A stretch of 64,000 nt of DNA from Spirodela intermedia. Taxonomy: Eukaryota > Streptophyta > Magnoliopsida > Alismatales > Araceae. Both the position numbers and the translations under genes were made by a program. The stretch spans positions 3,868,501-3,932,500 of the forward strand of contig LR746270.1 of assembly GCA_902729315.2 (NCBI GenBank). Direction: 5' to 3'. Shown in pieces: positions 15,793 to 51,639 of the stretch. The first letter of the stretch is position 1. Each line of letters opens with the position of its first letter. The notes beneath the pieces are model-generated. The model saw nothing but the letters and a program-made list of their open reading frames with translations, searched no databases and had not been told where the DNA came from.

Positions 15793-15875
15793 TCAACAGG
15801 GGGCGAAGCGGTCCATGAGCATACAGACGGTTGCCTCGGAGAGGGTTGTCCGCCGGACTGGCTTCTGCCTGGGGG

Positions 15876-15920
<45 letters not shown>

Positions 15921-16020: not shown

Positions 16021-17094
<1,074 letters not shown>

Positions 17095-21350: not shown

Positions 21351-21576
<226 letters not shown>

Positions 21577-21818: not shown

Positions 21819-21829
21819 CATAAATAGGG
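21819..21829 (+). promoter_or_regulatory. TATA box of cysteine-rich peptide gene 1
   Basis: CCATAAATAGG lies about 105 bp before the ATG at 21931. The paralogues have CTATAAGATG at 37391-37400 and CCTATAAATA at 45031-45040, 101-110 bp before their ATGs. Confidence 0.65.
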
Positions 21830-21930: not shown

Positions 21931-22509
21931 ATGGTGCCCACGGGCCGGGTTTTCCTCCTTTTGAAAATACTCGGCGCTGCGCTGGTCCTCCTCTCGTCCC
22001 TTACAGCCGCTCAGACGCCGCCGTTCCCGCCTAATCCCCCAGGTGAGATATCTTCACGGAACTACCGTGGGAGGCTTCTTTCTTCGTGGGTGGTCGTCTG
22101 CTTCGAAAGACTGTATTGGGTTCGTATCTCTAACGCATGCACATGCATCGCCCCACTGATCTCCACCCTCCGCTACTCGGACTTTGATTCTTCAGGTGCT
22201 CGCCGGGTGGCGGAATGGGCGGGGAACTCAACCACAGGACGCTGCTGTGGACGCTGCTGCGCAATCACCGATGACAAGTGCTCCGGTTGCTGCACCCCTG
22301 ACCCTGCGCCGCCGCCGCAACCAGTGCCGGCGCTGCCGCCACTTCGCGGGCGAGATGGGCGGGGACGAGGACCCGGACCCGGACGGGGACGACGGTTCGA
22401 TGGTCCGCGGTGTTGCCGCCGATGCTGCAGCTGGAGTAATACTTTCTGCCTTAGCTGCTGTCCCCCGCTGGCCGGAGACCCGAGGGAGACAGTATTTGAT
22501 TTGACATAG
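21931..22509 (+). CDS. Secreted cysteine-rich double-module peptide 1 (141 aa)
   Basis: Exon 1 is 21931-22042 and exon 2 is 22196-22509; the intron is 22043-22195 (CCAG|GTGAGA ... TTCTTCAG|GTGCT), phase 1. The signal peptide MVPTGRVFLLLKILGAALVL is followed by SSLTAA and a short QTPPFPPNPPG propiece. Module 1 is CCGRCCAITDDKCSGCC and module 2 is CCRRCCSWSNTFCLSCC; both are exactly CC-x2-CC-x6-C-x2-CC. Between them lies a Pro-rich then Gly/Arg-rich linker of about 45 residues, whereas the paralogues have only 7-8 residues. A 16-residue tail follows module 2. The 153-bp intron contains no in-frame stop, so retention would still give an open 192-aa product. The protein is likely apoplastic, with up to 14 cysteines for disulfides or metal. 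I do not recognise the family and assign no function. Confidence 0.85.
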   Translation: MVPTGRVFLLLKILGAALVLLSSLTAAQTPPFPPNPPGEISSRNYRGRLLSSWVVVCFERLYWVRISNACTCIAPLISTLRYSDFDSSGARRVAEWAGNSTTGRCCGRCCAITDDKCSGCCTPDPAPPPQPVPALPPLRGRDGRGRGPGPGRGRRFDGPRCCRRCCSWSNTFCLSCCPPLAGDPRETVFDLT

Positions 22510-25500
22510 ACGCGGGCGTCACTTGTTTCTCTTCGAGAGCCACCGCAGAGTGAAGTGTGGTGGGAACTGCTCGTGCTATCGTTTCCCTGGAGTTAGAAAA
22601 TAAGCCCCGACCGACTACGTTGGTCGTTTACTGCGACCTGCGTGGTACTACTGCGCGGGAATTCTACGCGTTTAATCAGCACACTGGCGCTTTACGCGTA
22701 CTACCATATCCCATACACTTGATACTCATAAATGAGACCAAAGTACTACTCATGAATTGGTGGGTTGTGGGGAGAGAGAAGTAAAGAAATCGAGATGGAG
22801 CAAGCGAGAGAGGGAGTGAGAGATAGGGAATGGATAAAGCCCTGTCGAACTCTATGGACTGCTAAATATCATAGAACTTGAAATGCGGTAGGGCTGTGCG
22901 AGGTCGTTATATAGTGTTCAATTGACGATGAATGGAGTAAGTCAGATGCTCGATAAAAAGTAGCGAAGGCGAATAAATAGTTTACAAGTCCAATTGTGTA
23001 TGCTTGGCCAACATCTGGTTAGGGTCCGAAATCTGCCCTTGGCCTGGACCGGGGTCTGGTCAGGGTCTACTCGGTGCTGTTCATTGCCTACGGTAGATCG
23101 CTCAGTTAATGGGTAGCCACCACATATTTTATTATGGTGACTGAGATTAATACTTGGATCTGGGAATCCTCCTAACCAGCATTTTTTAAGGATTTTGCTG
23201 CATAAATGTTCCTTGGGTATCAGATATTTGTTCAACCTTGTATGTGTTAGCTCTTACGCCCCCATCCTCACTTGAAATACTTTTACTGAGAATAAATGAT
23301 CATTTTTTTGAGAAAAAAATCTTAAGCTCATTGCTCACATGAAATCAAGAAAATTGCCTGGAAATATTCTAGTAACATTAGTAGCAGCAGTGCGATTATT
23401 TTAAATATCACTAGCATTTTTTTTTATTCATAAATTTATTCTCAAAACATATGCCAAAACTTTAGGCACGAACTCTCATGGCATGTGTTCGAAGATTTGA
23501 AGATCAATGACGAGATAGCATCAATCCCCTAATGTATTTGAAAGGAATGATACAAAAAGTTAAATAAGATGAGATCAATGTCACTAATGAGAATCTAAAA
23601 CAATTGACTAGTGATTGTTTGATTGGATATGCATCGCTGTCCAATTATCTAATATGGAGATTAATTCTGACAAACATCATTGAGAAAAACTACTCTCGTA
23701 AAATATTGGTCGAATTAATCAAATTCTAGGCCAGTGGAAGGGAAAAGAGTGTGCTAACTTCAAGATTTCACAAAGACATCGAATCATCAGGCTGTCTATG
23801 TTTTTACGCACGGTTCTGGGTGCCTATGTTTCATTATAACGTCACCCAGCGGGATATTCTTGTTTATTGGCCCACAAAAAAGTCACTGGAAAGTAAATGT
23901 AGTACTATTTTTCTGCTAAAATCTATCTTCCTTCTACTAGTTTAGTAATATACTTACGAAGGCAGCCAAAACAAGTTCGGGATTCCTCCATTATCTCCAT
24001 CAAATAGGCTGCTCTTGGCAGTATTAATCATAAGTCTGTTCTTACGGAAACAGTAATAGGATTTCCTCGCTAACTCCTTAACATACATTACTCAAATTTT
24101 ATGTTCCTTCATCGTGAATCAAAATGATAAATCATTTAAATCGAGGAACAAACCATTCTCATGTCATAAACTAAATGCCTACCTTTTTGACATGGATCAT
24201 GAAAGAGATTCTTAATTTCAAGTGTGATAAATCATGAAAGTTCCCTGTTACTAAACAAAAATATTAGGCATTCGCAACATGATCTTTTGCTCCTTGACAC
24301 TACAAATCACAAAGATATGCATCAATATACTTTGTGACGTTGTCACAATATTTTTTTCCTTGTTAAAATCTGTATACATGAGAATTAAAATCATAAATTA
24401 TTCAACAAATAGCCTTATTTATAAATAATGTTTCAGTGAATATAAAATATATCATATTGAAAACGAAGACATCATGTCATGTTAAATAATAGTGAGTATG
24501 ACTAGGATATAACTACTCTATAAAAATAACTTATTTAAAATCAGTTATATATATGAATTCGTTGGATTTTATTTTAAATTCCCATATCTTTTGCATTAAT
24601 TGAGTTTATCAAGTCTTTTTAAGTTGACCTTTTTGGAAGCCCACACTGTAGTAATTTTTTTCTTTGTGCATTTTATCTTTTCAATTATTATCTTTTCAAT
24701 TTTTCAATTAAATTCTTTTCAATTCGTAAGGCCTTTGGAAAATCTTGTTCCTTCTGTTTTCAACTTTTGGAAAATCTTGATTCTTCAGAAAGTTTCATCA
24801 AAAGCTAGCTTTAAATGAATGAAGGTTTTAAAAACCACACAATAGAAATCATTAATTCTTTTTTGCATTAATTTTTCACTTTCTAGTATCAACTATTCTT
24901 GGCAATGTCAGATCAGTTTTTCATTCGTTTACCACAAGACTTGACTTATTTTTTAAAGTCTCAACTTCTTTTGAGGTGGTCATTACTAAAGAAATCATAT
25001 TCATATTTTGATTCACTTCTTTCCTTTTTTTTAAAAAAATCAGTTTAATAGAAGGCTCCTATGAAGGATCTTATATTTTTCTTATTTGAGCGCATCTGTA
25101 ACTCATCAAAAGAAAGTGAAATTGAAATGAAAGATAGACATCTCCAATGCTTTCCCCTCATAATACAAAAAGCAAAAGAGTCATGAGCTGCAAACATTTA
25201 GTTGACCAAATAGGTTATCTGGCACAACCACTCTCCTTTTCTCTCTATAATTTTCAAGCCTAGTTAGGATTTTCAACGTCAAGATAAGAATATAGCCTTT
25301 TCATGGCTTTATTTTTGGGTTTAATAATTTATTTATTTTTGAAAAATAAAAACTATTCATAAAATTGTTAATATTTTATGATTATTATCCTCTAAACTAG
25401 GACAAATCTTTGACCCTTTTTAGGTTTTAGGTGTGGATCTAGAAGCAATTGTTAGATATGAAATGCCGGAAAGAGAATATTCCCTAGAATTTAAATCAAT

Positions 25501-26959
25501 GGATGTAAATTTTTATTGTAGTTCATACAAGTTCTATACTAATAAATTGTGCATTAGCACTTAACTACCTTCTAATAAATTGTTTTTGACACATATTACA
25601 TATTCACTTTCTTGAGATAAAAAATTAGACTAGCACAATAAATTTGGTTTTTCAAGTTAACAAGTAATAAAAATTTTATAAACTAATACTGATTAATAGA
25701 AGCCCAAGTAAAATACTTGTTTCCTAGTTGTTTTGAAGTCAAAGATCTGTAACTTGTTGATGCAAAGAATACCTATTCAAAGAGAGAAACTTTTATGAAT
25801 TTTTCTTTTTTATTTTTGAACGTCATGAAAGACTTCTCTACTTGATTATGGAGTTCCCTAATATAAAAAGAATGGGAAAAGTCAGGATTATGACTATTAA
25901 CATCTATTGAAGTTAGCTCTAATGTGCTGAATTTTTTATGGACTATGTTGTTGTTAATTAAATTCCTCAAATCTTAAATTTATATACCAAATAAAATTAT
26001 ATTTGTATTTCAATTATATAGTGGATTTTGGGTTGAACAAAAGGAGAATTATGTGACTGATCATGTATATTAATTAATGGTTTAATTCTGTTTTCTGAAA
26101 TTCAGCAACAACTAGATGAATGTGAAATTCCATAAATCTTTAAGAAGGTTGAATGCATGTTGAGAAGAGAAATCCTCTCAAAGTCTCACCAAGCACCACA
26201 TAAATTGGTTACGGATGTTTGATGAAAAGGATTCTTCAATTTCTTTAACGAAGTTGAATGATCAAATCACTGAAATGAGGAGGGACAATGATTGACAAAA
26301 TGTGAATTAAAAAATGAGTTCAATTACAACCAATTAAAAGGAACAAAACGGAAATAAACTTTTCCCTTTCGTTCTAAAAGATGTGGGAGAGAACGACAGC
26401 CTCACACAAGGGCTTCTTCAATTGATCCTCTTCTTGCTGCGCCAAGGGAGGAGATCTATGATCGTTTCTTGGTGTTGTCATCGCTAGAAGGGGAAGGAGG
26501 GAAGAGTTGGCTTGCCTATGGTGTGCAGGTAGTGCTGAGGGAGAAGGGGAGAGGAGGTTGGTTCTATTGTAGGAGAGAACTACACCAAACAAGGGAAGAC
26601 GAAGAGGTGATCGCAAATGTGTGGCTAAGCTGATGGTGGATCCCTTTTGGGATCATATGCCTTATTGTAGGCATGCCCGTTAGGCCCCTTTCAATCTACA
26701 AAAATAATAAGTCAGTTTTACAATTTTACCTTTTTATATTCATTACTTCTTCAATAGTCTATGATGAAACTAGGAATAAATATATGCTCATGCTCATGCA
26801 TCATGATTATCTATTAATTCTCTTCCCTTCAATAACTATTAATCATAGATTTCTCTTCTCATTTATCTTCACATTCTTATCCTTGTAGAAAAATAGAAAA
26901 ATAATACAGTTCATAAATCATCATGTGAAAATAAATAAGTGTAGTATTGAATGTGTACT
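22510..26959. other. AT-rich intergenic region
   Basis: The first about 120 bp after the stop share short stretches with the 3' flank of peptide gene 3 (CTCGTGYTATCGT; AAAATAAGCSCCGAC), probably a conserved transcript end. The remaining 4.3 kb is AT-rich with only short unsupported frames. A GC-richer patch at 26380-26680 is unexplained. Confidence 0.5.
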
Positions 26960-28591
26960 TGACGTGACTTAGTCGTTGTATAGTAAATCACGCAAATTTA
27001 AAATTTATAAAACTAAAAAAATATGAATTTTTGGATATTTAGAAGTATTTATAAACAAATATATCAATTATAATTCAATAAAGCATCCAAAAATAGCAGT
27101 AATTTTCCAAGTTGATCATAAGGATGTAATTTAATATATGGTAATTATTCAAAATTGTCTTCAAATAATACTATTTTCTATTAATTTTATACTAGGAAAT
27201 AAAAAAGAAATATATTTAAAATTCACAAAAAAAAGGGAAATAAGGGTGTAGACGTCAAGATAACATTGGCGCCCGGTGAACACCAATTGGGCGGAAAAAG
27301 AGTTTTGCCCAGTGATTCTTACATAAGCGATTACAGATGATTTAATTAATCAAATAAATATCTGTAAAAGTTGGAAGAATCATAATGAAATGAAGTATAT
27401 GTTGGTAAATTTAAAATCAACAAATTATCACTAAATGAAATAGAAATTAAGTTGAAAGTAAGAAAATAGAGTTCCGGTATCGCGGTGGTGATGCGTCGGC
27501 AATGCACTAGAATCCTGAACATTTGGGAGGATAGTCATGTAGTGTACATGGCCTTGAAGGCTCTCCTTAGACAAGGACGATGTGGCCAATCTCTAGATTT
27601 CATTGTGAAGTCTAGAGATCAATGAAATAGGTCATCAAATTGTCTCCGGCGGCTGTCACTTGGTGGAGTGGAAAAATAATGACTTTGTGGCTCTCTAGTA
27701 ATTGTCACTCAATAGAGAGGAGCTAGATGGAGGTGGGGCGTATGTGAGGGAGCTTCATCTTCAAGTCCGCACAGTAAGAGGAGACTCTTTATCGCATCTA
27801 GTATGATCTCAGGAGGTGGCGACTTGTCTCCCGGTGGATCGTCTTCTTCCTGACGGTGGCTTGTCCGTCGATCAATCGAAGGTGCTTTACTTGATGGATT
27901 CACGATCCTTTTATCGTGAATTGTTCATCAATTTTAGTAAAAATGCTTGCAAATCACGCTGACGAGATTTTCGTTGATGATCCAGCAATTTTGGTTGCTT
28001 AACCCTTCATCGGCGATCTGTAGGAAAGTCACGATATTCAAATAAAAAAAATATGAGTTTTAGGTCTAGGAGGATTCGAACCCACGCCGATTGCCCCACC
28101 CTTTTTGGGGAAGGTGACAGAGATTTAGTCCCACATCGGTTGTGCGCCAAAGTTTATGGTGAATATAAAGTAATATTACATTCTCGATCAAGTCCCTTTC
28201 TCGCGTGTGTACGACCACTCCTTGCCCCACACTTGGCTAGCCACTAGTGATGTAGAAGGGGAGTGGCACACATGTGCCCCCATCAGTTCAAGCCGCTCGA
28301 GCACTTGCTCGTGGCTCTTGCTTGACTGCGCTTCTGACCCACTTACAGGCCCGACTGCCCAATAGCCCCCCCTTATTTTCTTATATTTTTATTTTTATTT
28401 CTTTTCCTTTATTTATCTCAAAAGTAAGACTGTAAAAATCGTATAAAATCACATAATTAGCTAAAAAATCATGTTAATCAACTGAAAATCACTTTTCACA
28501 CTTTAACATAAATGTAAGTCTATTTATCATGAATTAAGACTAAAAATATATTATTTACTAATTATTAACTCATGATAATGAGAACTTATCA
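26960..28591 (-). mobile_element. Solo LTR of the Athila-like family (1632 bp)
   Basis: This segment aligns over its length with the full LTR at 53060-54730, starting TGACGTGACTTAG and ending ACTTATCA (TG...CA on the plus strand). The flanking 5-mers are GTACT (26955-26959) and ATACT (28592-28596), a target-site duplication with one G/A difference. No internal region or second LTR is attached, which is the expected product of unequal LTR-LTR recombination. Strand follows the orientation of the element at 47932-54730. Confidence 0.85.
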
Positions 28592-28739
28592 ATACTCATC
28601 ATATTCTTATATTTCTTAGGCTTTAAACAATAATACTCTTGCCCCTTTAATTTGATAATTGCTTAAATTATCAATTTTCATAGCTTATTTTCATATTTGA
28701 CATGTACCCAAGGTCAACTTATTGTCACAGTTTGACCAG

Positions 28740-30180
28740 TTTTCTAATACATTCTAGGGTTTGCTATTCTTATTTGCCTTGGCTACAGCCTTGACTTTTT
28801 AGGGAAACATATAGTGATGATGAGAAGAAGACCCAAAGAGAGAATGAAGGTACACAAATAATTTGCTGAAATTGCATCTTTGAATCTTTGCCGGAACAAG
28901 TTTTGGTTCAGCATTGAAGGGTAGATTTTAACGGTGATTACTTTACAAATGAAAAATGAGGAGAAATAGACCATAAATAACTAGAGTTATGAAACCCTTT
29001 ATTTTCATTTTTCCAACTATAACTACTGTCCTAAGCCACTAATGTTCATCAAGTCTTTTTTTCATAGGGCAGAAGAAACTCCATTAATGATGATGAGCAA
29101 CTTTCCTTTCCTCTTTTCACACTATTAAACCATGTTAAAATGTCCATGTCTCAAGAAAAGTATCAATAATTGATAAACTAATTTGATAAATAAAAAGCAT
29201 GATGAAACCTATTATCTTATGGTAAAAAGGTAATCAATAATGCTCTTAAGAACTTTTTCTACTTTTGAGTTTTGTAGATGCATGTGTAGATCAGATTATG
29301 TAAGCTTATTTGTAATGTGCACCTTATGTCTCAATTTTAGAGCATATGTCATTTAAATAATCATACATCGATAGAATAATATAATTGAAACCCTATGACA
29401 AACATTTTGGAAGGTATTATACATTTTGGATTAATTTGGTTGAAGTTTTCCCCTATTAATTCATAGTATTTGTTCAAATCTGTAATCACAAGATGATTTT
29501 GTTACACAAATTTGCCATAATCATCTTTGTACCCCATATTGGCTACTATGCATATACTTGTGAACTCAACTTCTCAGCAATAGATTTGAAGGCGTTTTCT
29601 GTGTTGCTTCTGTAATGTTTTTATGTTAATTTATTATCACTAACATTGACTTATTAAATTATAGTATAATAATCTCGTGAGCTTTTGAGCTTTATTGTAA
29701 ACTAATGCTACCATGTTTGAATATTTTTTAAACCTTAACGTTTCTGATAGTTACGGGTATGTATATACTTGTTTCACTCATCATTTGAAGCTAAAATGAT
29801 GCAAGAAACAACACAGAAGCTTTAAGAATTTGTAGTCATATGACTTTTATAAGTAATTCTTTTCTTGAGTAGTGTTATTGATGCATGACATGATAGATCA
29901 TTATTGCACTATCGGCAGTTAGTAATTGTCGGCAACCATTATTGGTGAATGCTACAAGAATATAATGTTTTTTTAGAAAATAACTGCATTATTCTTCGTT
30001 CTAAGATAAAAATAGAGAGCTCCAAAATAACAACCCATCATGCACACCTATCTTGCAGGATGCGAGCTGAGGCGCTAAAGACAGGCTATTGCTCAACTAA
30101 TTGCGCAAAGCTTCTGCCTGAACGGAGGCTAGTGAGTGCTTTAATTGCCGCCCGGGAACCAACCCAACTACTACGCTGAT
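28740..30180. repeat. Repeat X, copy 1
   Basis: This roughly 1.4-kb segment is repeated at 30360-31790, and in its right part at about 39545-40570. Landmarks shared by all three are a CACCTATCTTRCARGATGC motif near the right end (30045, 31715, 40495) and the TTTGATA(C/A)AT...GGTGATAAA(A/G)TCAT segment. No reading frame is conserved between copies, so it is non-coding or a long-dead element. Confidence 0.65.
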
Positions 30181-30359
30181 TACTTCCGGCGGTATCAGTT
30201 GCACTGACTCTGAAACAACCTAGTACCGTTCTCCCTCCCGCTGTGTTGACTTCCACGCTGGTTATGGTTCTTATCTTCTATATCTTCTGTTGAAGTTTGC
30301 TTCGACGGGGGTGCATTTTCATAGTTTATTTTTACGTTAAATTTGAGCTTTTGTCGCAT

Positions 30360-31790
30360 ATAGTTAGGGCCTGTTATTGCCTTTCGCCTAGGCTACAATC
30401 TTGCCTCTTAGGGCAGCAAATAGTAATGCTGAGATGACCACCCAAAAGAGAGAATGGAGGTAACAGGTAGTTTGCCGAAAATGAATGTTTGAAGTTTTGG
30501 TTCTGCATTCAAGGAATACGAAGGTTACTCCTGCCAGATGAATAAAGGAATGTCTTCCAACCATTGCACTTGCACTTGTTCTCCAAAAAAGGTGCTGCAC
30601 GATGAATGCACTACAAAGGGAAAACGAGGAGAAACGGAGCAAAGGAGTTCATGATAATAGGAGTTATTAAACCCTAGACGCTTATTCGTCCATCTTTACC
30701 TCTCATGATCATCAAACATTTTATTCCTAGGGCAGAAGAAACTCTGTTAAGGATGATTATCAACCTTGGTCTTTTCACATTATAAAACCGTGATATAATG
30801 TTCATGTCTTAAAACATAGTATTTATAATAAATTAAGTAATTTGATACATCACAAAAGGTGATAAAGTCATATTTATCTTATGATTAAAAAGTAATTATT
30901 AATCTGCTTAAGAGCTTCTGCTACTTTTGAGTAATTATTAACTTAAGAGCATATCACATTGAAATAATTTGGAATAGAAATTGTAGACTAACTTTAATAA
31001 TGATACATTAATAACAATGTATTTGAAACATTCTGGCTAACATTTGGAACTCTTCATTTCGAGGATGATGTTGAATTTTTTGGAAGGTGTCATAGATTTT
31101 GGATTAATTTGGCTGGAGTTTATAACAATTAAGTCATAGTACATGTTTGAAGTTACAATTCTAAATTGATTAAGACTCATTGTCTTGCAAAGTTTTAGTG
31201 GTTAAACTTTATTTTACTTAATCTTCTTCAAACTTTGGTCCCTAGGTCCACTACATATATACTTGTGAATTTAACCTGTCATTGAAAGATTTGAAAGTTT
31301 TTTTCATGATGATTTTATGGAAAAAAATTATTTATAACGATAGTATCTAATAATATACGAAGCTTTTATACTTGTAGAGGTTTAGCGCAAACTAATGCTA
31401 GCATGTTGAAGTAAAGTTTTGACCTTGACATTTCTCATAATCATAGGTATGTGAATACTTGTTAGAAATATAATTTAAAACTAAAATGATGGAGGAAAAA
31501 GTAGAAAAAAAATTAACAATTCGAAGTGATATGATTCTTATAAGATCAATGCTCTTCCGAAAATGGTGTGATAGGTGCGTGACAAGATGGGAAATTATTG
31601 AGTTCGACAATAAGTGTTTGTTGGTAACCAGTATTGGTGAATGTTTTATAAAATAACTAAATTGTTCTTCACTTAAAGATAATAATAGAGAGATCCAAAA
31701 TAAAAATCCATAATGCACACCTATCTTACAAGATGCCAACCGAGGCATTAAAGAAAGCCTACTGATCAACACTTGTCATTGTAATGCTTT
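30360..31790. repeat. Repeat X, copy 2 (tandem to copy 1)
   Basis: This copy is diverged from copy 1 but collinear: it shares the CAAAGAGAGAATGRAGG-like start region, the GAGGAGAAA segment and the CACCTATCTTACAAGATGCC end. Together with copy 1 it forms a tandem pair with a period of about 1.6 kb. Its right part belongs to the larger block duplicated at 39.5-44.2 kb. Confidence 0.65.
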
Positions 31791-34700: not shown

Positions 34701-34940
34701 TGAATCTATGCATGAAGTCGTCTGAGTGTCATTTATTCTATCTTGGTTTTTTCAACAGGCAGACAAGAGAGGGTAGACAAAGGCCGCACACAGACAAAGT
34801 TGTGGGCATTTCTGGATATGGATACCAAAAAACATTCGTTGACCCTATACAAAGCGACACTATATTAGAAGGGTCACATGGGAGATTAACAGAATTGGCC
34901 TTCAAAACAGTGTAGAATTTCATCTTGTGTGCAACTCATG
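30815..34940. repeat. Segmental duplication, block I (partner about 39545-44030)
   Basis: Collinear matches include 31800-32300 with 40728-41230, 32926-33129 with 42054-42254, 33600-34140 with 42713-43260 and 34640-34925 with 43740-44030. The spacing is about 8.9-9.1 kb, with small indels. Copies look around 85-90% identical by eye (not computed). The duplication extends, after unit B, to the promoters of peptide genes 2 and 3. Confidence 0.8.
33480..34940. repeat. Unit A of the three-copy A/B/C repeat
   Basis: This roughly 1.46-kb unit has tandem copy B at 34945-36330 and copy C at 42590-44160. Its core (33600-34140) includes GAAGAGATTGATGGGTCCCA and CTACCCCTGCTGCTATACAA, both kept in C and mostly in B. 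Open frames exist on both strands in A and C but break in B, so coding status is unresolved. No known protein domain is recognised. Confidence 0.6.
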
Positions 34941-34944
34941 CATA

Positions 34945-36330
34945 TTATGTAAACCAATCAGTCTATTAGGATATATAAATATATTTACTTACTCGGCCAT
35001 CCTACTCAAATCAACGGACAAGAAGAATTTACTCTTCTAGCACTTCTGGCTTGCTTATCCACTTGCCATTATTTCCTTGATATTTCCTTTACCACAGGCA
35101 CTCCTTCACGATGCTATATAGATCAGAGCCCCACGTAGTCCATGAACAGTGGTGCGGACCTCAGAAGAGATTGATGGATCCCACGAACCCCATAGTTTCT
35201 CTATCCACCATTCTTGTCCTCAACTAGTTCCATGCCATCGTGACATTAGAGATGAGTTGTACCGCTTTCGGACACCTCAGACTGATTTCCATACGCAATC
35301 TACTTCTTCCTGCTCTTTAAAGGGCCTCTTCCTCTGTTAGAGATGACGGCGAATCGAATGAGAGCGAATAAATAAGTGTGTTGCGACTACCCCTGCTGCT
35401 ATACAAAAGGCGGAATCCGTGTACACTGCCGAGTCCCCAGGACTTGGCCGCAGAGATGCTGCCCATGCTGCAGCCATATGCTGGATAGCTTCTCCCACAC
35501 CTTGCTTCCCCGATGAGGATCGAGGACAGAAGCCAACAGTTACTGACAGACGTTCTCCTCGCTTGTGTTGTTTGTTGCCTCAGTTAGATTAATGAATCTC
35601 AGGAAAAAAGAGAGAATTGATTAGGGAGAAGATAGCTTTTTAAGATAGAAGAAAAAGGTTATATTGTTGATCTTTTGCTCCTTCAGATCTTTTTCACGCT
35701 TTAACAATCTTGCTGTCGTAAATATCCCGAGTACAAACGTTTCGAGTAGTGTGAACTATTTTTTTCCACGGACAGAAGCCATATTTGTTAGGCGCTTTTT
35801 AGCTGAGAACCCTTTTAGGAGTTTATCAGACTATATGGCTTACGATATGGAAGAATGGTAAATCGCAGAAGAATTTAAAATTGTTAGGTGCTATGGATGG
35901 CAGCAAGCCTTGTGAAAATTCTATAGTGAGTTTGACTTGAAATTATGTGCGGGCATAAATCATAAAATATTCATACTCTTCTGCATTTGTTGCTGTTCGA
36001 AAAGGACAGCAAAGAACACTACTAGTTTTTTCTTTTTTCTTAACTTTTGGATAAGAAAAATATTTATAACGAAGACGAGATATGGACGAAGTGGTGATCA
36101 CATAAAGAGGAAGGTGAGAGGTCAGAATCTATACAAGACGTCATCTCAGTGTCATTTATTCTCTATTGCTTTGTCCTCCAGAATGGTGATGGGTCATGCA
36201 TGTTATGATCTCTGGAACGAAAGAGACGGTTTTCCAGTCAATTAAACTTCCCACACAGTTTTCCTAAAATATCCTACCATATTCTTAGAGTTACATTCAA
36301 AAGTCGGATGTATTGAGTCCGTAGATTGAA
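34945..36330. repeat. Unit B (tandem neighbour of A)
   Basis: This diverged copy of unit A is shifted by about 1452 bp. Indels break all frames that are open in A and C. Its right end (CAGTCAATTAAACTTCC ... GAGTTACATTCAAAAGTCGG) matches the right end of unit C better than A does, so C looks like an A body with a B tail. Confidence 0.6.
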
Positions 36331-36342
36331 ATGACATGGTAT

Positions 36343-36373
<31 letters not shown>

Positions 36374-37160
36374 TGTTGTTGTGACGGTGAGCCTAGGTAT
36401 GAGCTATGATATGCTCTGGGGAAAATTATTTTTTTGAGAAGTTATCTGTTAATAATCTATACTTGGTTAAGCCATTTGACAAAATCATTATATGTATAGC
36501 GTCGTGTCCGAGTTGCTGGAGGAATTTTCCCCATCCAGTAACTAGATGTTTTGGCCGGGAAATTGGAGCGAAAAATCTTCAATCTAAAAGCTTCTCCGAG
36601 AAGATTATCCATTTGATATAAAGTTAGCTAAAGCTTGTTGTTTTGTTCTCCTCAAGTCTCTCTTAATTGATTTGTCCCAGTCCATTGGCTAAGATTTAAT
36701 GGTTATCTGAATCCAGTTTTAAACAATTTCAACATGACCAGACATCTACATTTATTGAGAGTAGTTTTTCAGATGAACATTTTATTAATTCTCAAGGAAA
36801 AGTCTAAATGGGACTGAAAAATCATCAGACATGTTCTAGTTTCGCATATTGAAGGCAAAATGCTCAAAATGCAATTAAAGGGGTGGCATAAGATTAAATC
36901 AATTAAATCTGGGATGGAGGGTTCTTATACCAGATGCAATTAAATCAAAATGGTCAAGAACTGACCAATAAAAACATGTTATCCAGCACAGTACTAAGTT
37001 TGTACTTTAAATTCGTAGATGTTAACTATCATCGAAGGCAAAGGTTTATTACATGCGGTGCTGAAAAATTCAACCTGTAGAGCGTTATTACTAAAACACA
37101 CCTATGACTTTGTAGGCAACGAAGTAATACTATTGCTAAACGAATGTTAATGACATACTA
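36331..37160. other. Spacer between unit B and the peptide gene 2 promoter
   Basis: This is AT-rich with a short (GA)n run at 36349-36373. No gene is recognised. Part of it has no counterpart in block II, where the spacing from unit C to peptide gene 3 is shorter. Confidence 0.45.
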
Positions 37161-37500
37161 GTAATACGAGCATATGTCAGGCTGCTTTCCAAAAGTCGGA
37201 GTTGAACAGGTCCTCTCAATGATTATATCGAAATTCATTGCCTTTATGAGGGTTTGAAAAAGCGCCTCCGCGCACAATGGATTGCGCCTCCATCTAAGCC
37301 AAGATAGACCTTATCCTTGAGTTTTGATCTGTTACACCATTCGTAGGAGTGAACGACACTGACTTGCCAGAGCGTCACTCCCTGTGTTCCCTATAAGATG
37401 AGGGGCAAGAAGGAAGCTCGAAGCACCACTCGTCGTACGTCTCTTGTCTACCATCTACGAGTGGGGTATCTGGGCTTGGAAAAGAGGGACGGAAAGAAAG
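37161..37500 (+). promoter_or_regulatory. Promoter/leader of peptide gene 2, homologous to that of gene 3
   Basis: It aligns with 44771-45141: shared segments include the TTTTCCAAAAGTC region, AGACCTTATCC, GTGAACGACA, GTGTTCCCTATAA with the TATA box, CTCGAAGCACCA, and GGGACGGAAAGAAAGATGG running into the start codon. The TATA box is CTATAAGATG at 37391-37400. Homology up to and across the ATG supports the start choice. Confidence 0.65.
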
Positions 37501-37916
37501 ATGGCTCTAACCCGTCTGGCAGTGATTCTTACCATCATCGTCGCTGGACTGGTCCTCTTCTCGGCCCTCGCAGACGCCGGGGAGCCACCTTCCCCCCCAG
37601 GTGAGAGCGGTTTAGTGCCCTTTTCTTTGAGTCTCCTTCCAGTTAATGTCTGTTTGCCGTGGAAATGGGCGGAACCCGTACTGTTAAACACAGGCAAACC
37701 TTCTTTTAATGAACCTTTTTTCCAGGTGCCCAGACCATAGCGGAGTGGCGGCATGCACAGTTCCTTCCCAGCTCGGACGTGCAATACTGCTGTCGTCGTT
37801 GCTGCCGTTTTGAAGACGTATATTGCACTAAGTGCTGTCACACACCGACACTTGGTACCTGTTGCTCCCGATGCTGCGTCGAGGTTAATGGCTACTGCTA
37901 TCGGTGCTGCCGGTGA
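37501..37916 (+). CDS. Secreted cysteine-rich double-module peptide 2 (96 aa)
   Basis: Exon 1 is 37501-37600 and exon 2 is 37726-37916; the intron is 37601-37725 (CCAG|GTGAGAG ... TTTCCAG|GTGCCC), phase 1. The signal peptide MALTRLAVILTIIVAGLVLF is followed by SALADA, with likely cleavage before GEPPSPPG. Exon 2 encodes a 20-residue spacer (AQTIAEWRHA...) and then two modules, CCRRCCRFEDVYCTKCC and CCSRCCVEVNGYCYRCC, separated by HTPTLGT. Both match CC-x2-CC-x6-C-x2-CC exactly, and the protein ends in CCR. All 14 mature cysteines lie in the modules. The mature peptide is small and Arg-rich. An apoplastic disulfide-rich peptide (defence or signalling) is a reasonable guess, but no known family is recognised. 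Confidence 0.88.
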
Positions 37917-39433
37917 ACCTTCTTCCTCGTTCCCAAGTCAAATAAAAGGAAGTAACTGATGTAACATAGGCCTTAAAAGAAATAAGAGGCGAGTCTTCGA
38001 CGGGCAAGGACGGGCGCCTGGATGTAATATGTGGTGTTGTTTCTTCGAAGATTGTGAAGGATTCTCTATCTCGTGACATTTCGACAGTATCGAACGAGGT
38101 TTCATTGAATTTAATGTGCACACAGGAGCAGTTAGTGACAGTCCGTGCCGAATCATACAATGCGATCAGTCCGTGCTCGTTGTACGACTCCAATGCATTG
38201 TAAAACAGGATAAACAGAACCCGCTTGCACCATTTACGTACGTTGGCTGGACAGTTTTTGAACCTTTTACAAAAGGTATTTTCATTAGGTTCCCGTCACT
38301 GCATGGAGAAAATCGATCACTTTGGTTATCTGCATAATTTGCAATCAACCGAAAAGATAGGACCCTATAAGTATTACAAACTGCAATGGAGATAGGTTAA
38401 GCATCCCTCAAAAACATTCTCAGTAATATTTTTTTTTTGTCTAAATATATTTTATGGCATAGATTAGAAGACTAAGGTATTGGTATATTTGGGGTAGAAG
38501 ACATAACAATGTCATATAAATGAATTGAGATCAAGAGAAAATTACTTAGCATCTAAGAAAATTAATGTATTTATCAAAATAAGCTTTTAATTTCTCATAG
38601 ACTGTTAAATGTGGTTTGCCGTTTAAGGCTGCCCCATTTAATGAAGAGACATGCTTTAGAGAAAAACAGTTAATTGGTGGACCAATCTTCATGGATCGAA
38701 ATGGCCAATAAAAGGGTGAACTATTTCTCAAGGAAATGGCCCACTTAAGGTGCTTCCACCACCAATTGTGAGGACATTCACTTCTGTGGCTTCTAGGAAT
38801 GTGGGATGAATATTGATGATATTTTTTCTGGATACTACAGCTTAATACCATGAGAGTGGTAATCAGAAGCAATGCCAGCTAAGTTTTGGACAGTGTAATG
38901 TGATTAATAAGGTGGAAAAATGCTTCAGTTTGTGTTCGTTGTATAGTACCATGCATCATATGCTTAATTTATTTTATTACATTCCCTTTACCTTAATTTC
39001 GTTTTACAAACATGAGTGGTTATCGGTGCATCCCCTGTCCTATCAGTTCAGTCATTATAATCAAGCTGCTGCTGCTCAGCTCACGTCCACCATGTCATAC
39101 ATACTGACCTTACTATCTTTGGTGATTCCTGGTACTGTGAAGTACTGGGCATGCTTGAATATGTTAAGATGCACCAATGACCTCGTAGGAGATTTTTGTC
39201 ATCAACTGGGATGGTCAGCCCAATTCTTCTGTCCTTGTGCCTTTCCCTTGAAAAAATCTCAACTTTTTTTTATGACAGAAATATTTGTCCCTTTTATCTC
39301 ATCATGATGTTGTTGCAGTCTTTTTCCTTTTTAGATATATTTTTTATTTTAAATTATTTTTCAAAAATTTAAATTTATCAAATATTTTTTTAATAATTAG
39401 TACTTGCAAATAATAAATAATGTTGGCTAAAAA
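37917..39433. other. 3' flank of peptide gene 2 and intergenic DNA
   Basis: The first about 120 bp are similar to the 3' flank of gene 3 (CAAGTCAAATAAAAGGAAG; GAGGCG...TCGACGG; CGCCTGGATG). The rest is AT-rich. A 135-codon frame at 38900-39307 has no recognisable motif and is not called. Confidence 0.45.
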
Positions 39434-39545
39434 GCTTGATACCTAATAAGTATTAATTATCATGATATAATAATTTATTTAATAATATATTTTATTTATT
39501 AACTCATGATAAATAGCCTTATCTTTGTGTTTAATTGAGAAAAGT
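39434..39545 (+). repeat. Decayed fragment of Athila-like LTR
   Basis: The segment with TATTAATTATCATGA and TTATTAACTCATGATAAATAG, then CTTATCTTTGTG, resembles the first about 110 bp of the LTR at 57026. It directly abuts the left edge of duplicated block II, so an old element may have been involved in the rearrangement. Confidence 0.4.
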
Positions 39546-42500
39546 AGTGTTTAATATTTCTAATTGATAAAGTAATTTGATACATCACAAAAGGTGATAA
39601 AATCATGTTTATCTTATAATTAAAAACAATTATTAATCTACTTATGAGCTGTTAGTTTTGAGTTATGTAGATGTTGTGTATCTTATACCTTAACTTAAGA
39701 GCAGTGTCATTCAAATAAATTAGAATATAAAAGGTAAACTAACTTCAATAATCATACATTAATAATAGTGTATTTGAATCATTATGGTCAACTGTTGAAC
39801 TCTTGATTTCAAGAAAATGTTGAACGATTTTTGGAAGGTGTTATAAATTTCACATTAATTTTCTTAGAGTTTACCACGATTAAGTCATAGTACATGTTTG
39901 ATGTTATATTTCCAAATTGATGAAGATTCACTGTGGTTTAACTTTATTTTACCTAACCTTCTTTATACTTTATACTGTCCACTACACATATACTCGTGAA
40001 TCCAAGTTGTCATCTAAAAATTTGAATATGTTTTTCATGATGCTTTTATGTTAATACATTACTTATAACCATAGTATATAATAATATACTAAGCTTTTAT
40101 ATTTTAGAGGCTTAGTGTAAACTAATGTTGAAGTAAATTTTTAACCCTGAAATTTCTTATAATCATAAGTGTGTATACTTGTTAGAAATATCTTTTAAAA
40201 CTAAATTGATCCAAGAAACAATAAAAATAATCCAATAATTCGAAGTGACATGATTATTAAGATTAATGGTTTTCCCAAATGGTGTGATAGGTGCATGACA
40301 AGATGGGAAATTATTTAGTGCGACAATAAAGGCATGCGCACCTATCTAAAGATTAATGATTCTAAAGATTAATGGTTTGTTTGTAATGAATATATGTGAA
40401 TGTTACATGAATATAATGTCGTTTTATAAAATAACTATAAATTTTCTTCATTCTAAGATAATAATTGAGATAAAAAATAATCATCCATCATGCGCACCTA
40501 TCTTGCAAGATGCTAGTCGAGGCATTAAAGGCAACCTATTGATCAACACTTTCAAGGGAGTTGAATTTAGACGCTGCCATAAAAACAATCTATAACGGAT
40601 TGGGTCCTTCCCATGCTTTGGAGAATATCATTAGTTGAATCTCATTTTCGTTGCTTTCAAGTTATATGAAGAGTACCCAACCCTGTAAATTGAATTACAT
40701 CATTGTAGTATTTTACATGTCATTGTACTATGCTGAAATTCTCAGTAGGTTGCACTCAAGTTTGATAGGAACATGAAGTGTTTGGTGGGCTAGAGCTGCA
40801 GGGTCAGTCAGTATGAGATAATACCACGAATGCTTATCTAGTAAGACAGATCTAAGAAACTAGTGATGTACTGATAACAGACCAGATATCTACGTGCCCA
40901 TCCCATTATTGGTAGAACATCATAGCGGTGATGACAAACATTTGAAGCTAGATTCACGAAACCTGTATTGATTTTTACCAGATTGTAGACAGAACTAGGA
41001 GAGTAGTGAATCAGTGTTTTTTTAGATTTTTATTTAAATTCAGGTTTCCTGCTATTTTTTTAACTAAGAATTATAATGATACGGTTTATCAGGCCTGCTG
41101 TCCTTTCCAATGACTGTGTCCTTAGGTTCCAATATTTCATTTCGATACATTCATCAAACACTGGGGTTTAGCTAATTTTCTATAGATTATTGATTTGAGA
41201 TTAGGCCAAGTATGTTAACTACTCAAATAAAAAGAATTTTTTAAAAGAAGTCTTAATATTTCGGCACATAGCTACCTTTGGCTTGAACGTGTGGGCCTGA
41301 TGAAGTGAAATCTTCTTTAAATGAGGAGCTGCTTCAATGGTTGGCAAATATGCAAAAATGTTGATTTCGTAGAGTGGAAATATTTTTTAGCATGTTGGAG
41401 GGTTTAATACTTGAATTTTACGCGTGTAAGACAATTTTTTTTTTTAAACGATCATTTCAACATCTAGGTGTCCTCAATCACAATACCTTGTGCTATCTGT
41501 ATTTGGACTTGCAATGCTGTGCCCCAACAGCCTTTTTGTCTAGTAAGTCAACTTTCAAAAATGTCCTGTGAAACACTAATTTTTTCTAAGAAAAACCCCT
41601 AAAGAGCTGCAGACGTTTTTAAATGTTAAAGTATGTTTTAATATCCAAAGGATATGAATAACCATAGTGGAAGTCGAACATTTAAATATGTTACCAATCG
41701 AAAGGATAAGTAATTTGATTCTCTGCCAATCGAAAGGATAAGTAATTGACCCCACTAGGAGATAATCCAGCGTTTCCCTTGGTCCCCTTGAAGTCAATCA
41801 GCTGGAAATCCAACTATTACCATGAGGGTTATCACCAAGTTAGGTTTGAAACGGAGCTTCATACTGTAGAAGCTGATAACACCTCGGGTTCTATGTTCAT
41901 AAATCACACATTCGTCGGTTAAATCGAGCTTAACATTGCGTCAAAAAGTAAAAGTGATAGCAATGTCCGGACCAGCTGAACCTTTCTCAATCAACATGTA
42001 GCTTTCTTTGGAGAAAATCGCGTATGTGGTATCGGTCTCTCCACTGGGACTATTTAACAGAGTGGTATAAACTTATTACTGAAACGTTTTTTAAAAATTA
42101 TGTCCCATACTTGACGTAAAATGTATATACTTTTCAGAGGAATAAACAAAGAAAAGAGTTCTACAAGTAGACGAAGCCAAAATCTTATCAGATTCGCAGC
42201 GTTTGTTGTGCCTTGGTTGGTTTGTTTCTCTGCGTTATATAATACATCACACAAGGTTATAGTGTGAAAAATTGCGTGGAGCTGCTACCTTAGCGTAGGT
42301 CAGTACATATATGAGGCATGAATAGATGAGCTGCCAATACTTTCTCCGCAGGTAATGATTATTTGATTGAAGAAACGTAACCTTAGCATATCTCACTCTA
42401 TCAAACCAGGGTATAGGAGATTGTTTCAACTTATATGAAGCTCACAGTCTTCATACCTCTTTAATGTCGATACAATAACTTCCTCCTGAAGAGTGTCATT

Positions 42501-44030
42501 AAGCTTCATTGAAAAACCGGAATATGAAACATTACCAGTCCCTGGATTTACAATTGTGAGAACAAGAACGAAAAAAGGAAGAAAAATGGCTAAAATTTAA
42601 CGATTCTATGAACCAATAAATCTACCAAGATACAAAATTATATTTACTTCAATTACTAGGTTATCCAACTGAAACGCAACTGGAATTTACTGTTCACGCC
42701 TCGCTTCCTTCTTTTGGTATACCTCCGTTGTGATGCAACTTCTGAAAGCCAGTGGTAGCCTCGGTCAGCCAAAGAGTGCTCTCACAGAAATGATTACACC
42801 AGTTCTTACGTGCTTCTCCACTTGCTATCGGTTCCCTGATGTTTCCTTTGCCACAAGAACACCTTCAAGATGCTCTAGATCAGACACTCGAAATCCATAA
42901 GCAACGGTGGGTACCCACAGAAGAGATTGATGGGTCCCACGAAGCCCATAGTTTTCTCTCTCCGCCATCCTCATCCTCAACGAGTTCAATGCCACCGCGA
43001 CTTGAGAGAGGAGTTTGTACGGCTTTTGAATGTCCCCGAGTGGGGGCGAATAAACAAGCGCATTGCAACTACCCCTGCTGCTATACAACATACAACAGGC
43101 AGAATCCGTGTACACTACCGCGTCCCCGGGACAAGGCCGCAGAGATGCAGCCACATGTTGGAGCCACACCTGGTTTCTCCGGTCGGGGTCGAGGTCGGAA
43201 TCCGACAGTCACCAGCAGACGTTCTCCACGCTTGCCCTGCTTATTGCCTCTGCTATAGTAATGAGTCTTAGAAAAAGGAGAATTCCCAAGTGAGAAGAGC
43301 AAGCTGTTTAAGAAAGAAGAAAACGGTTATCGTTGATCTTTTGCAACTTCATATGTTTTTCAACCTTCTCAATCTTGCTATCATTACTATGCTCCGTACT
43401 CGAGTTTTGAGAACTGTGAACTATTCTCGTCGACGGACAGAACCGCATTCGCAATGCGTTTATTAATTGATGGGCACGGACTATTTAATAGTCTATCAGG
43501 CAATATAGCTTGTGATGTGCGAGAAGGGTAAATGGCATACAAATTTAAAGTTTCATCGACCTATTAATTGCAAGGATAGGTGGCAAGCCATGTAAAAATC
43601 GATAGTGAATTTGTCTTGAAATTTATGTTCGGGCAGAAATAAAGAAGTATTCGATCTCTTCTGCGTTAGTCGCTGCTGGAAAAGGGCAGCAAAGAAATCT
43701 TTACTAGTTTTGTTTTTTCCTGAAATTTTGGATAAGATAAAAAAATATGTGGTCAAGAGTAGATATTGACGAATTTGGAGAAAGGAAAGTGAGCGATCTG
43801 AATCTATGCATGAAGTTGTCTCAGTCTCATTTAGTCTATATTGGTTTTTTCAACAGGCGGACAAGAGAGGGCAGAAAAAGGCCATACTCAGACAAAGTAG
43901 TGGCCATTGCTAGATATGGATACCAAAATATTAATAGTTAACCCTATACAAAGCGACACTATATTAGAAGTCTGACATGGGAGATTAACAAAATTGTCCT
44001 TCGAAATGGTGAATTTTTTTATCTTGCATG
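39545..44030. repeat. Segmental duplication, block II (includes repeat X copy 3 and unit C)
   Basis: Partner of 30815-34940 (landmarks given there). Repeat X copy 3 covers about 39545-40570 and unit C about 42590-44160. Within unit C, frames on both strands (42839-43258 plus; 42825-43169 minus) stay open like those in unit A, but neither has a recognisable domain. Confidence 0.75.
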
Positions 44031-44159
44031 CAACTCATACATATTATTATCCTTGGAGGGAAGGAGATCCGGTTTTTCAGACAATTACGCATCGAATAGA
44101 GATTATCTACAATTTGCTGCATTATTCTGAGAGTTACATTCAAAACTCGGATAGATGCA

Positions 44160-44770
44160 GTCCCTGAATAGATATAAAATAATGTAATATTGGATAGCGG
44201 GAGAGAGTGTGCCTCAGATAGCCGGAGACAGCGTGAGCGAGCGATATCTCATGAGAGATCGCTCGAAGAGCTTTTCGGATAAAGAAGTTAAATGAAATTT
44301 CGTGCATGAAATGAAGTACGAATTTCTCCACCTAGATGCTTCACCATGAAGATTATCCATTTGATAGAAAAAACTCTATATCCATTGAGCGTGATATTGA
44401 CTTTGCCCAATGTGAAGTTGTCTGCATCCGTTGTTTGGAACCATTTTAGACAGTTACGCAAAATATAATTGTTTCATGTGAGTAGTTTCCTCGAAACATA
44501 CTCTTTGAAAGGTCAAAGGAAAGTACAAATGGAAGTGATAGATATTGCCATCAAATTTCTCGCGTTAAATTAACTGGAATGGATCGTTCTCTTAAGAAAA
44601 GGTATCTAAATAAACATGCTCAACTAGTAAACCCCGTCATCCTCTTATCCGACATGCTGAAAGGATTATTTAAGACTAAAATATGAACGCTGTGTAACTC
44701 ATCATCTGAAGCAAAGGACGATTTCATGCGGTGAGGTAATCCTATTTTCAAACGAATACCAATGATATAC
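44160..44770. other. Spacer between unit C and the peptide gene 3 promoter
   Basis: About 600 bp with no gene recognised. It has short internal similarity such as the GAGAGAGTGTGCC / GGAGACAGCGTGAGC area near 44200-44270. Confidence 0.4.
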
Positions 44771-45141
44771 CAGTAATATGAGTATATGCCAAGGTATTTT
44801 CCAAAAGTCAGAGCTGCATTGGTCCTCTGGCGAATTACATCGAAATCCATTGCCTTAATATGGTTTTGAAAATGTATCTCCAGGCCCATTGGATTTGGTG
44901 GCGTACGGTGGAGAAGTGGAGGCCCACCTTCTTCCAAACCCAAGTCAGACCTTATCCGTGAACGCTGTTTTGTTCCACGAATCGCAGCAGTGAACGACAT
45001 TGTCTGATCAAAATGTCGCTCCGGGTGTTCCCTATAAATAACGGGCACGAAGGAAACTCGAAGCACCAGTCTTCCCGCGTCTCTTGTCCGCCATCCACGA
45101 CTGGGGTATCTGGGAATTCAAGAGGAGGGACGGAAAGAAAG
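44771..45141 (+). promoter_or_regulatory. Promoter/leader of peptide gene 3
   Basis: Homologous to 37161-37500. The TATA box CCTATAAATA (45031-45040) lies about 102-111 bp before the ATG. Homology continues through GGGACGGAAAGAAAG to the start codon. Confidence 0.65.
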
Positions 45142-45558
45142 ATGGCTCCAACCCGTCTGGCAGTGATCCTCACCATCCTCGTCTCTGGACTGGTCCTCTT
45201 GTCGACCGTCGCAGACGCCGGCGAGCCACCTGCGCCCCCAGGTGAGAGCGGTTTAGTGCGCTTTACTTTGAGTCTCCTTCCAGTTAATCTGTTTTGCGGT
45301 GGAAATGGGCGGAGCTCGTACTGTTAAACGCACGCAAGCTTCTTTTTAATGAACCTTTTTTCAGGTGCCCTCAGCGTAGCGGTGGAGGGGAACTCACAGC
45401 CCCTTGCAACCTCATCCGTGTACTACTGCTGTCTTCGTTGCTGCCGTTTCTATGCCGGGAGGTGCCTTGTTTGTTGTCACCGTCCGATTATTAGTACGAA
45501 GCCGTGTTGCAGGAAATGCTGCAATAGTGTTGGCGGCTTCTGCCTTAAGTGCTGCTAG
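45142..45558 (+). CDS. Secreted cysteine-rich double-module peptide 3 (97 aa)
   Basis: Exon 1 is 45142-45241 and exon 2 is 45365-45558; the intron is 45242-45364 (CCAG|GTGAGAG ... TTTTCAG|GTGCCC), phase 1. The signal peptide MAPTRLAVILTILVSGLVLL is followed by STVADA, then GEPPAPPG. Modules are CCLRCCRFYAGRCLVCC and CCRKCCNSVGGFCLKCC, separated by an 8-residue linker (HRPIISTK plus P), again exactly CC-x2-CC-x6-C-x2-CC; the protein ends at the last CC. It is closest to gene 2: the signal peptide is almost identical, but the spacer and inter-cysteine residues differ strongly. It belongs to the duplicated block, so the pair is recent relative to gene 1. It is an intact gene with all splice sites and no frameshift; function unknown. 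Confidence 0.88.
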
Positions 45559-46144
45559 GCGTCGGGATGCGGTTCTTCAACCTTCCTCACCGTTCCCAAG
45601 TCAAATAAGAGGAAGTGTCTGATGTATCAAAGAAATAAAAGGAGGCGTCCCATCGACGGCCGCGGACGGCCACCTGGATGAAACCTGAACTGTTTAGAGC
45701 ACGCTGCCGCTCTGGTCGGTGTGATATATTCTCGTGTTATCGTGTAGTTCTCGGTTAAAATAAGCGCCGACTAGGTGCCGTTTCTTTATAGATTCTGAAC
45801 GACTCCACTATCTCGTGCCTTCTAGACAGTATCGGACGGGGTTTCCTCGAGTTTAATGGGCAAAGAGGAGCAGTCAATAACAAATATTGTGCGAGCGATT
45901 GGTAAAAATTTTCGAAAGGAATATGAGTGGGAGGAATAGCGAGTGATTTGACGACAGTGGAGAGCGAAAGGGAGATTAAAACCCTACATGGACAGAGACA
46001 GACGGACAGATAGGGAAAGGCAAGCGTACGAAAGTAGTAAAGGGACAGCGTTGACGAAGAAATGTCGATGGAATCAACTTAATCTTTGTCATGAGTCTAA
46101 GTATGACCAATAGTGATCAGAAAGAGCTGGGGAGGCAGGGAGGG

Positions 46145-46288
<144 letters not shown>

Positions 46289-47931: not shown

Positions 47932-48132
47932 TGACATGACTTAGTCATTGTATATTAAATCACGCAAATCTAAAATTTATAAAACTAGAAAATACGAATT
48001 TTTAGATATTTAGAAGTATTTCTAAATAAATATATCAATTATAATTCAATAAAACTTCCAAAAATAGTGGTAATTTTCTAGGTCAATCACAGGGATGTAA
48101 TATAATATCTGGTAATTATTCAGAATTTTTTT
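47932..48132 (-). repeat. Truncated 3' LTR of element 1
   Basis: Matches the outer about 200 bp of the LTR at 53060. At 48125-48135 it passes directly into integrase sequence. The rest of the LTR, the polypurine tract and the 3' internal region are missing. Confidence 0.85.
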
Positions 48133-48139
48133 CAAAATT

Positions 48140-49260: not shown

Positions 49261-49630
49261 CCCACTACATAATTCGATGCATCACACATTATTTCAAAGG
49301 GAAGGGACTAATCAGGAGCTTATAAAATGGGTGCCTTAGTAAGTAATCTTTTTATTTTGGAAAAAGACTCAAAACATTTCTCATCAAAATTAAAAGCCAT
49401 ATCTTTAGATAATAGCATGGTGAGAGGTTTAGGAATTTTTGAAAAATCTTGAATAAATTTTCTGTAATAACTCGCATGACCTAAGAAAGATCTAACCTAT
49501 TTTACTGAATTTAGAGGTTTCATTTTAGATATAATATCAATTTTTACTCTATCCACCTCTAAACCCCTTTCACTCACAATATGACCCAACACAACTCCCT
49601 CTTTAACCATAAAATGTGATTTCTCCCAAC

Positions 49631-50206: not shown

Positions 50207-50214
50207 GTTAGGTT

Positions 50215-51612: not shown

Positions 51613-51639
51613 TGGCTCATTTGCTGCATCATTTCCATA

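Follow-up and report, generated by a model that had tools for sequence, protein, structure and literature searches.

What kind of protein holds on to its cysteines while almost everything between them changes, and what would drive such change? The question is raised by three small genes on the forward strand of a 64,000-nucleotide stretch of the genome of the monocot Spirodela intermedia, which we call the window (C7:3868501-3932500, within an assembly of 136.5 Mb and 32 contigs). The original prediction had taken them for a locally amplified family of secreted peptides. The explanation that we consider probable, with ample room for doubt, is a duckweed family of secreted defence peptides.

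All three genes were re-located at the positions first given for them (21931-22509, 37501-37916 and 45142-45558), and the layout proposed at the outset was borne out: two exons, with a signal-peptide-like start and a Pro-rich stretch ending in PPG, a phase-1 intron, and two modules of the form CC-x2-CC-x6-C-x2-CC. The features are as follows, with signal peptides assigned by eye and modules located by a six-frame pattern search.

21819..21826, + strand: TATA-like box of gene 1, at -112 from the ATG
21931..22042, + strand: gene 1 exon 1, signal-peptide-like start and Pro-rich stretch ending in PPG
22043..22195, + strand: gene 1 phase-1 intron, 153 bases, without a stop, so that the unspliced reading is also open
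22196..22509, + strand: gene 1 exon 2, mature part, its modules split by a long linker that is first Pro-rich and then Arg/Gly-rich
22243..22293, + strand: gene 1 module 1
22411..22461, + strand: gene 1 module 2
37121..38027, + strand: part of a tandem segmental duplication, holding gene 2; its partner (44733-45683) holds gene 3, 73% identity in a self-comparison of the window
37392..37397, + strand: TATA-like box of gene 2, at -109
37501..37600, + strand: gene 2 exon 1, signal-peptide-like start, Pro-rich stretch, PPG
37601..37725, + strand: gene 2 phase-1 intron, 125 bases
37726..37916, + strand: gene 2 exon 2, mature peptide and stop
37788..37838, + strand: gene 2 module 1
37860..37910, + strand: gene 2 module 2
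45033..45039, + strand: TATA-like box of gene 3, at -109
45142..45241, + strand: gene 3 exon 1, signal-peptide-like start, Pro-rich stretch, PPG
45242..45364, + strand: gene 3 phase-1 intron, 123 bases, holding an in-frame stop
45365..45558, + strand: gene 3 exon 2, mature peptide and stop
45427..45477, + strand: gene 3 module 1
45505..45555, + strand: gene 3 module 2

Splicing at GT..AG borders yields proteins of 141, 96 and 97 amino acids for genes 1, 2 and 3, and among these three only gene 1 has a C-terminal tail of more than one residue. Two further intact copies outside the window, L009 and L010, have introns of 123 and 124 bases. The five intron lengths leave remainders of 0, 2, 0, 0 and 1 when divided by three, yet the spliced frame is open in all five genes, each of which also carries a TATA-like box 108-112 bases upstream of its ATG. 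Across all six reading frames of the window the strict module pattern is present six times, always inside the three genes; 100 windows simulated with a first-order Markov model contain it not once.

Family copies and their cysteines

Searches of the genome assembly with gene 2, gene 1, exon 2 of L012 (on contig C1), the deposited protein P0003, L013, L010 and L015 showed that the family reaches beyond the window. Five contigs carry at least eleven copies between them, of which six are intact and five are broken; the number is a lower bound because the genome search scores its best candidates only. A separate, second homology search was restricted to the 7997 candidates with most words in common. 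Local amplification, as proposed for the window genes, was confirmed on this larger scale, since six of the copies lie on one strand of C7 inside 102 kb. A simple DNA pattern, TGYTGY-N6-TGYTGY, proved too loose to be of use (2425 hits in the genome, 1058 for the reversed control). The copies read as intact are genes 1, 2 and 3, L009 (C7:3944432), L010 (C7:3980846) and L013 (C10). Among the broken ones, L011 (C7:3992614) has lost most of exon 2 and, in its remaining module, three of seven cysteines; L012 has a stop in exon 1 and open modules; L014 (C3) has a signal-like stretch without an in-frame start codon and a stop upstream of the donor; L015 (C7:1984332) has an exon 1 that reads into a stop and a damaged module 1; and L016 (C12) has a frameshift in module 1, where an assembly error is possible. 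Two weaker candidates were dropped before counting, L017, which matched the Arg-rich linker alone and had no module pattern, and L018, a weak match in which no module was seen. Together the copies look like the outcome of birth-and-death evolution. In L009 (C7:3944100-3945300), whose intron is 99% identical to that of gene 3, module 2 has gained a C-terminal partial repeat, C-x6-C-x2-CC.

Several proteins deposited for S. intermedia belong to the family. P0001 contains exon 2 of gene 3, and P0002, whose contig measures 8,301,278 bases, is distinct from the family copies found in the genome. In neither is the signal exon present, and the opening stretch of each is similar to a repeated open reading frame nearby (window 42839-43258). 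P0004 consists of exon 1 of gene 2 followed by exon 2 in the wrong frame. These three models look mis-joined, and the predicted secretion is therefore hidden in the databases. The published annotation of S. intermedia is described as homology-based (PMC7645714). Three relatives read as proteins alone, P0003, P0005 and P0006, open with a signal-like exon of this sort and continue with Gly-Glu, as they would if a GGTGAG donor had been read through.

It had been claimed that all modules keep every cysteine. This holds for the six modules of the window and fails in L009, P0002, P0003 and L013. The first cysteine of module 2 stands in a CC doublet in genes 1-3 and L010, and in C-x-C in L009 and P0002; in P0003 module 2 starts with PC, another cysteine lies upstream in the linker, and the core has x7 instead of x6. 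L013 is without two module cysteines and has x8 in module 1. Thus in L009, P0002 and P0003 the extra cysteine of module 2 moves and the core cysteines stay. Counted over the mature part, the totals are 14 for each of genes 1, 2 and 3, 18 for L009, 14 for L010, 12 for L013 and 14 for each of P0003 and P0002, that is, even in all eight sequences (the six intact genes and two deposited relatives; P0001, whose modules are those of gene 3, and the broken copies were left out, and the mis-joined P0002 and unspliced P0003 were counted from exon 2 on). Within the predicted mature part of the six intact genes, 12-21% of the residues are cysteine. In an alignment of 13 modules, every loop position varies. 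The net charge is positive in seven of the eight counted sequences and ranges from -3 to +7.

The pattern suggests three disulfides in each module and one bond between the modules. We propose the latter because the added cysteine shifts among the relatives and the totals are even, and a cysteine of module 2 that moves in this way would look like what is expected of an inter-module staple outside the core. Concerted loss of cysteines was tried as a guide to pairing and abandoned: module 1 of L014 has lost cysteines I and IV, a pair in the beta-ginkgotides discussed below, and module 2 of L013 has lost III and VI, which form no pair there, and the events are too few for the pattern to be used.

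Selection on cysteines and loops

The constancy of the cysteines among widely varying residues had been read as purifying selection on a fold. The conservation of the cysteines stands, and the variation between them needs another reading for the four closest copies, gene 2, gene 3, L009 and L010, in which there is an excess of amino-acid changes. The comparison of genes 2 and 3, which the original prediction had itself proposed, gave by the Nei-Gojobori method a non-synonymous distance (dN) of 0.785 and a synonymous distance (dS) of 0.445 for the mature non-cysteine codons, with an intron distance of 0.114, and none of the 14 cysteines common to both showed an amino-acid change. In raw divergence the two genes differ by 35% in exon 2, 9% in the intron and 11% in exon 1. 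Across the four copies, the 14 aligned cysteine codons all stay cysteine, and the ratio of dN to dS (omega) for non-cysteine codons is 1.5-3.1 in six of six pairs.

We then fitted a likelihood codon model to these four copies, dropping alignment columns with a gap in any of them. Gene 1 was kept out because it is near saturation (dS 0.7-2.2), as were the dispersed copies. The joint fit gave an omega of 1.1 for exon 1, about 0 for cysteines and 4.4 for mature non-cysteine codons. The last value differs from 1 with a likelihood ratio test statistic of 32.1 (p = 1.5e-8), and cysteine and non-cysteine codons differ from each other with a statistic of 80.7. Exon 2 taken alone is the fairer test, though the weaker one, because synonymous change runs at a separate, higher rate in the mature part; here the non-cysteine omega was 2.9 (p = 0.0012). 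The direction was the same in every subset of exon 2: 3.2 without the linker (p = 0.0011), 3.9 for the 20 in-module codons alone, whose alignment is unambiguous (p = 0.006), and 4.8 for the 20 codons upstream of module 1 (p = 0.014). The loops therefore look positively selected, their variation driven rather than tolerated.

Explanations for the family

Defence and venom peptides are typically marked by a signal-like start, fixed cysteines, fast loops, tandem copies and, as mostly here, a basic charge. The four closest copies fit the diversifying kind of cysteine-rich peptide, with a signal-like start, fixed cysteines, an omega above 1 in the mature part and duplicated genes. We infer from this the secretion, the disulfides and their pairing, and the role in defence, and propose the following mechanism. 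Exon 1 would supply the signal peptide and a short Pro-rich spacer, and exon 2 a mature peptide of two compact modules, in each of which a single extra cysteine precedes a core of six, spaced C-x2-CC-x6-C-x2-CC. Every core may close three disulfides, probably in the beta-ginkgotide manner (I-IV, II-VI, III-V), and the two extra cysteines would pair as a seventh bond that staples the modules together. Such a scaffold would tolerate many loop sequences, and selection would keep swapping the loops and the segment upstream of module 1 in an arms race with microbes or grazers, with copies presumably born by local tandem duplication and many of them decaying.

Several observations weigh against this explanation. 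An AlphaFold model built with six sequences is poor (predicted local distance difference test score, pLDDT, 55; predicted template modelling score, pTM, 0.33) and shows weak hairpins in each module. L010 is acidic, with a net charge of -3, which makes one common membrane-lytic mechanism unlikely. The evenness of the cysteine totals counts for little, as only L009 and L013 are independent changes of count and most sequences have 14 by descent. In pairwise alignments L009 keeps only 13 cysteines in register with gene 1, gene 2 and L010 because of its C-x-C shift. As to selection, the four paralogs are a small data set, and in the four near-saturated pairs with gene 1 the non-cysteine omega is 0.83, 0.73, 0.49 and 1.23. 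Exon 1 is not clearly constrained: on its own it has an omega of 1.7 that does not differ from 1 (p = 0.28), and its pairwise values are 1.8-3.8 for L010 against gene 2, gene 3 and L009. Between genes 2 and 3 the mature part has a dS of 0.45, higher than the 0.14 of exon 1 and than the distance of 0.11 found for the intron, so that the joint test is distorted, either by gene conversion, which is possible among the paralogs, or by a high local rate of mutation. The flank upstream of these two genes is already 25% divergent, and in comparisons with L010 the divergence of exon 2 (29-36%) exceeds that of the intron (24-25%) and of the upstream flank (26-32%) by no more than a modest margin. Finally, diversifying selection is also typical of reproductive ligands.

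Ligands of reproduction or self-recognition, comparable to S-locus or pollen-tube attractant peptides and diversified by mate or pollen recognition, would indeed combine the same fixed cysteines with fast loops in a local tandem array, and would accommodate a deposited protein such as P0002 that differs from the genome copies. Spirodela, however, is reported to propagate mainly asexually (PMC7645714), which weakens selection through mating, and we regard this explanation as improbable. We are no more inclined to see in the family secreted inhibitors of proteases or other hydrolases, directed in defence at grazers or microbes, in which the loops would be bait loops rather than membrane-active surfaces: two like domains per chain, variable loops between fixed cysteines and the range of net charge would suit such inhibitors, whereas neither Pfam nor the Protein Data Bank (PDB) yielded a match to a known inhibitor family, and an invariant loop residue is lacking in the 13 aligned modules.

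The original prediction had left open whether the peptides bind metal or form disulfides. Duckweeds accumulate metals, and apoplastic peptides of a metallothionein-like kind, with cysteines as thiolate ligands, would account for the high cysteine content and the doublet-rich clusters. A signal peptide, on the other hand, would route the chain to an oxidising compartment, the spacing is that of a peptide with mapped disulfides, no Pfam family matched, and one would not expect a metal sink to have loops whose omega exceeds 1. Because the cysteine totals are even in eight of eight sequences, metal binding seems less likely than disulfides, and for probably secreted proteins of this kind we rejected a metallothionein function as quite improbable. 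It is very improbable that these are non-functional or unexpressed copies, with frames left open by recent duplication and cysteines kept by chance, as might be thought from the five visibly broken copies and the mis-joined deposited models, given the contrast in omega between cysteine and non-cysteine codons (statistic 80.7), the survival of spliced frames over introns of differing length, and the loss of three of seven module cysteines in the truncated L011, as expected once constraint ends.

If the peptides are secreted for defence, they would be a concrete candidate for such a role in duckweeds, which are described as lacking EDS1 signalling, and a natural double hyperdisulfide scaffold that tolerates loop change and would be useful for display.

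The rest of the window holds the following. An uninterrupted open reading frame of 746 amino acids with pentatricopeptide repeats adjoins the cluster (17927-20167). The region 13443-17487 contains apparently duplicated small genes or fragments, 13443-13717 and 15728-16031 being 77% identical including their TC-rich stretches, with two minus-strand open reading frames that end in MLMDRFAPC and MVMDCFSA, one of them with a poly-Gln run, and no Pfam match at an E value of 0.001. Long (AG)n-type arrays lie at 21341-21572 and 46140-46286; this repeat is relatively abundant in S. intermedia according to its genome paper (PMC7645714). Further along are two inverted copies of a retrotransposon-like element, 48125-52494 and 57612-61977 (91.8% identity over 4376 aligned positions), the first of which matches reverse transcriptase at 49631-50206. 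The plant small nucleolar RNA family snoR71 is matched at 52255-52361 (46 bits, gathering threshold 40), in overlap with a retrotransposon-like reading frame on the opposite strand.

Comparison with known systems

It had been held that known plant cysteine-rich families differ from this spacing. In line with this, the three window proteins and nine aligned family members matched no Pfam family at E values up to 10, in a library which we take to cover defensin, thionin, snakin/GASA, LTP, hevein, MiAMP1 and metallothionein. No NCBIfam family matched either (a bacterial and archaeal library); a profile search of the PDB with the nine-member alignment gave two hits, at E values of 2.2 and 3.6, not beyond chance; a search of the PDB with a module profile gave no match, beta-gB1 included; and Foldseek found no match in the PDB for the AlphaFold model. 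We found no description of a duckweed family of such peptides in the open-licence literature; An et al. 2019, to which PMC9828482 refers for an expansion of antimicrobial proteins in S. polyrhiza, lay outside that search and could mention one.

The claim does not stand in full, since the core C-x2-CC-x6-C-x2-CC is identical to that of the beta-ginkgotides, so that a named family shares the spacing except for the first cysteine. The peptide beta-gB1, YETGCKRCCYLDEYGCIRCC, has this core (Wong et al. 2017, PMC5522442), and PDB entry 5XIV confirms its sequence; its disulfides have been mapped as I-IV, II-VI and III-V (structure 5XIV, PMC5522442). The same paper counts 76 relatives, spread over 59 gymnosperms, and reports that angiosperms have none; the group is also treated in PMC6651024. 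All six window modules have the core spacing, with deviations in some relatives (x8 in module 1 of L013, x7 in module 2 of P0003). Very high cysteine density and a precursor with a signal peptide, predicted in our case, are common to both groups (PMC5522442). The differences are that beta-ginkgotides have six cysteines and one core, and the duckweed window genes two cores with seven cysteines each, 14 per protein; that loop 2, with its Tyr, Leu, Asp, Glu and Gly positions, is conserved in the gymnosperm peptides and variable in the duckweed modules; and that beta-ginkgotides are reported from gymnosperms alone, whereas the host here is a monocot. The beta-ginkgotide precursor comprises signal peptide, propeptide, mature peptide and C-terminal tail; in the duckweed genes a signal-peptide-like start and a segment before the modules are present.

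Likeness to beta-gB1 outside the cysteines was at the level of permuted sequences, both for 13 modules (identity p = 0.52, BLOSUM p = 0.28; a set that excludes near-copies of gene 3 and modules whose spacing is altered) and for the six window modules (identity p = 0.42, BLOSUM p = 0.14). When filters were switched off, beta-gB1 scored 21.3 bits and ranked 352nd of 502 scored sequences, 500 of which were its own shuffles, with a median of 23.7. Homology as a settled fact was accordingly rejected, and for the same reason, together with the variability of loop 2, we speak of the same framework and not of membership. That the duckweed peptides are angiosperm descendants of the beta-ginkgotide lineage, with the core duplicated, stapled by new cysteines of flexible position and the loops released into an arms race, is conceivable to us, if doubtful.

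Hepcidin is a vertebrate iron hormone and antimicrobial, known from animals. After its first cysteine it has the same order of cysteine groups, CC, CC, C, CC (sequence confirmed in PDB 1m4f). Its spacing, C-x2-CC-x1-CC-x4-C-x2-CC, with eight cysteines in a single module, differs from that of the duckweed peptides; a relationship was rejected on this ground, and the likeness is regarded as convergence. Conotoxins evolve in the same mode, with hypervariable loops between conserved cysteines and duplicated genes (PMC3823881); these and other venom peptides belong to other organisms and have other cysteine frameworks, and we claim no homology. Within the same plant family, the MiAMP1-domain proteins of duckweeds are likewise an expanded family of antimicrobial type, which is pathogen-responsive and shows rapid birth and death in plants reported to be without EDS1 (PMC9828482); the cysteine peptides have no MiAMP1 Pfam match, and given the absence of EDS1 and the expansion of MiAMP1 a second diversifying defence family would fit. 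As regards the closest of these systems, either the beta-ginkgotide framework would extend to flowering plants, or a 16-residue core of six cysteines would have been invented twice.

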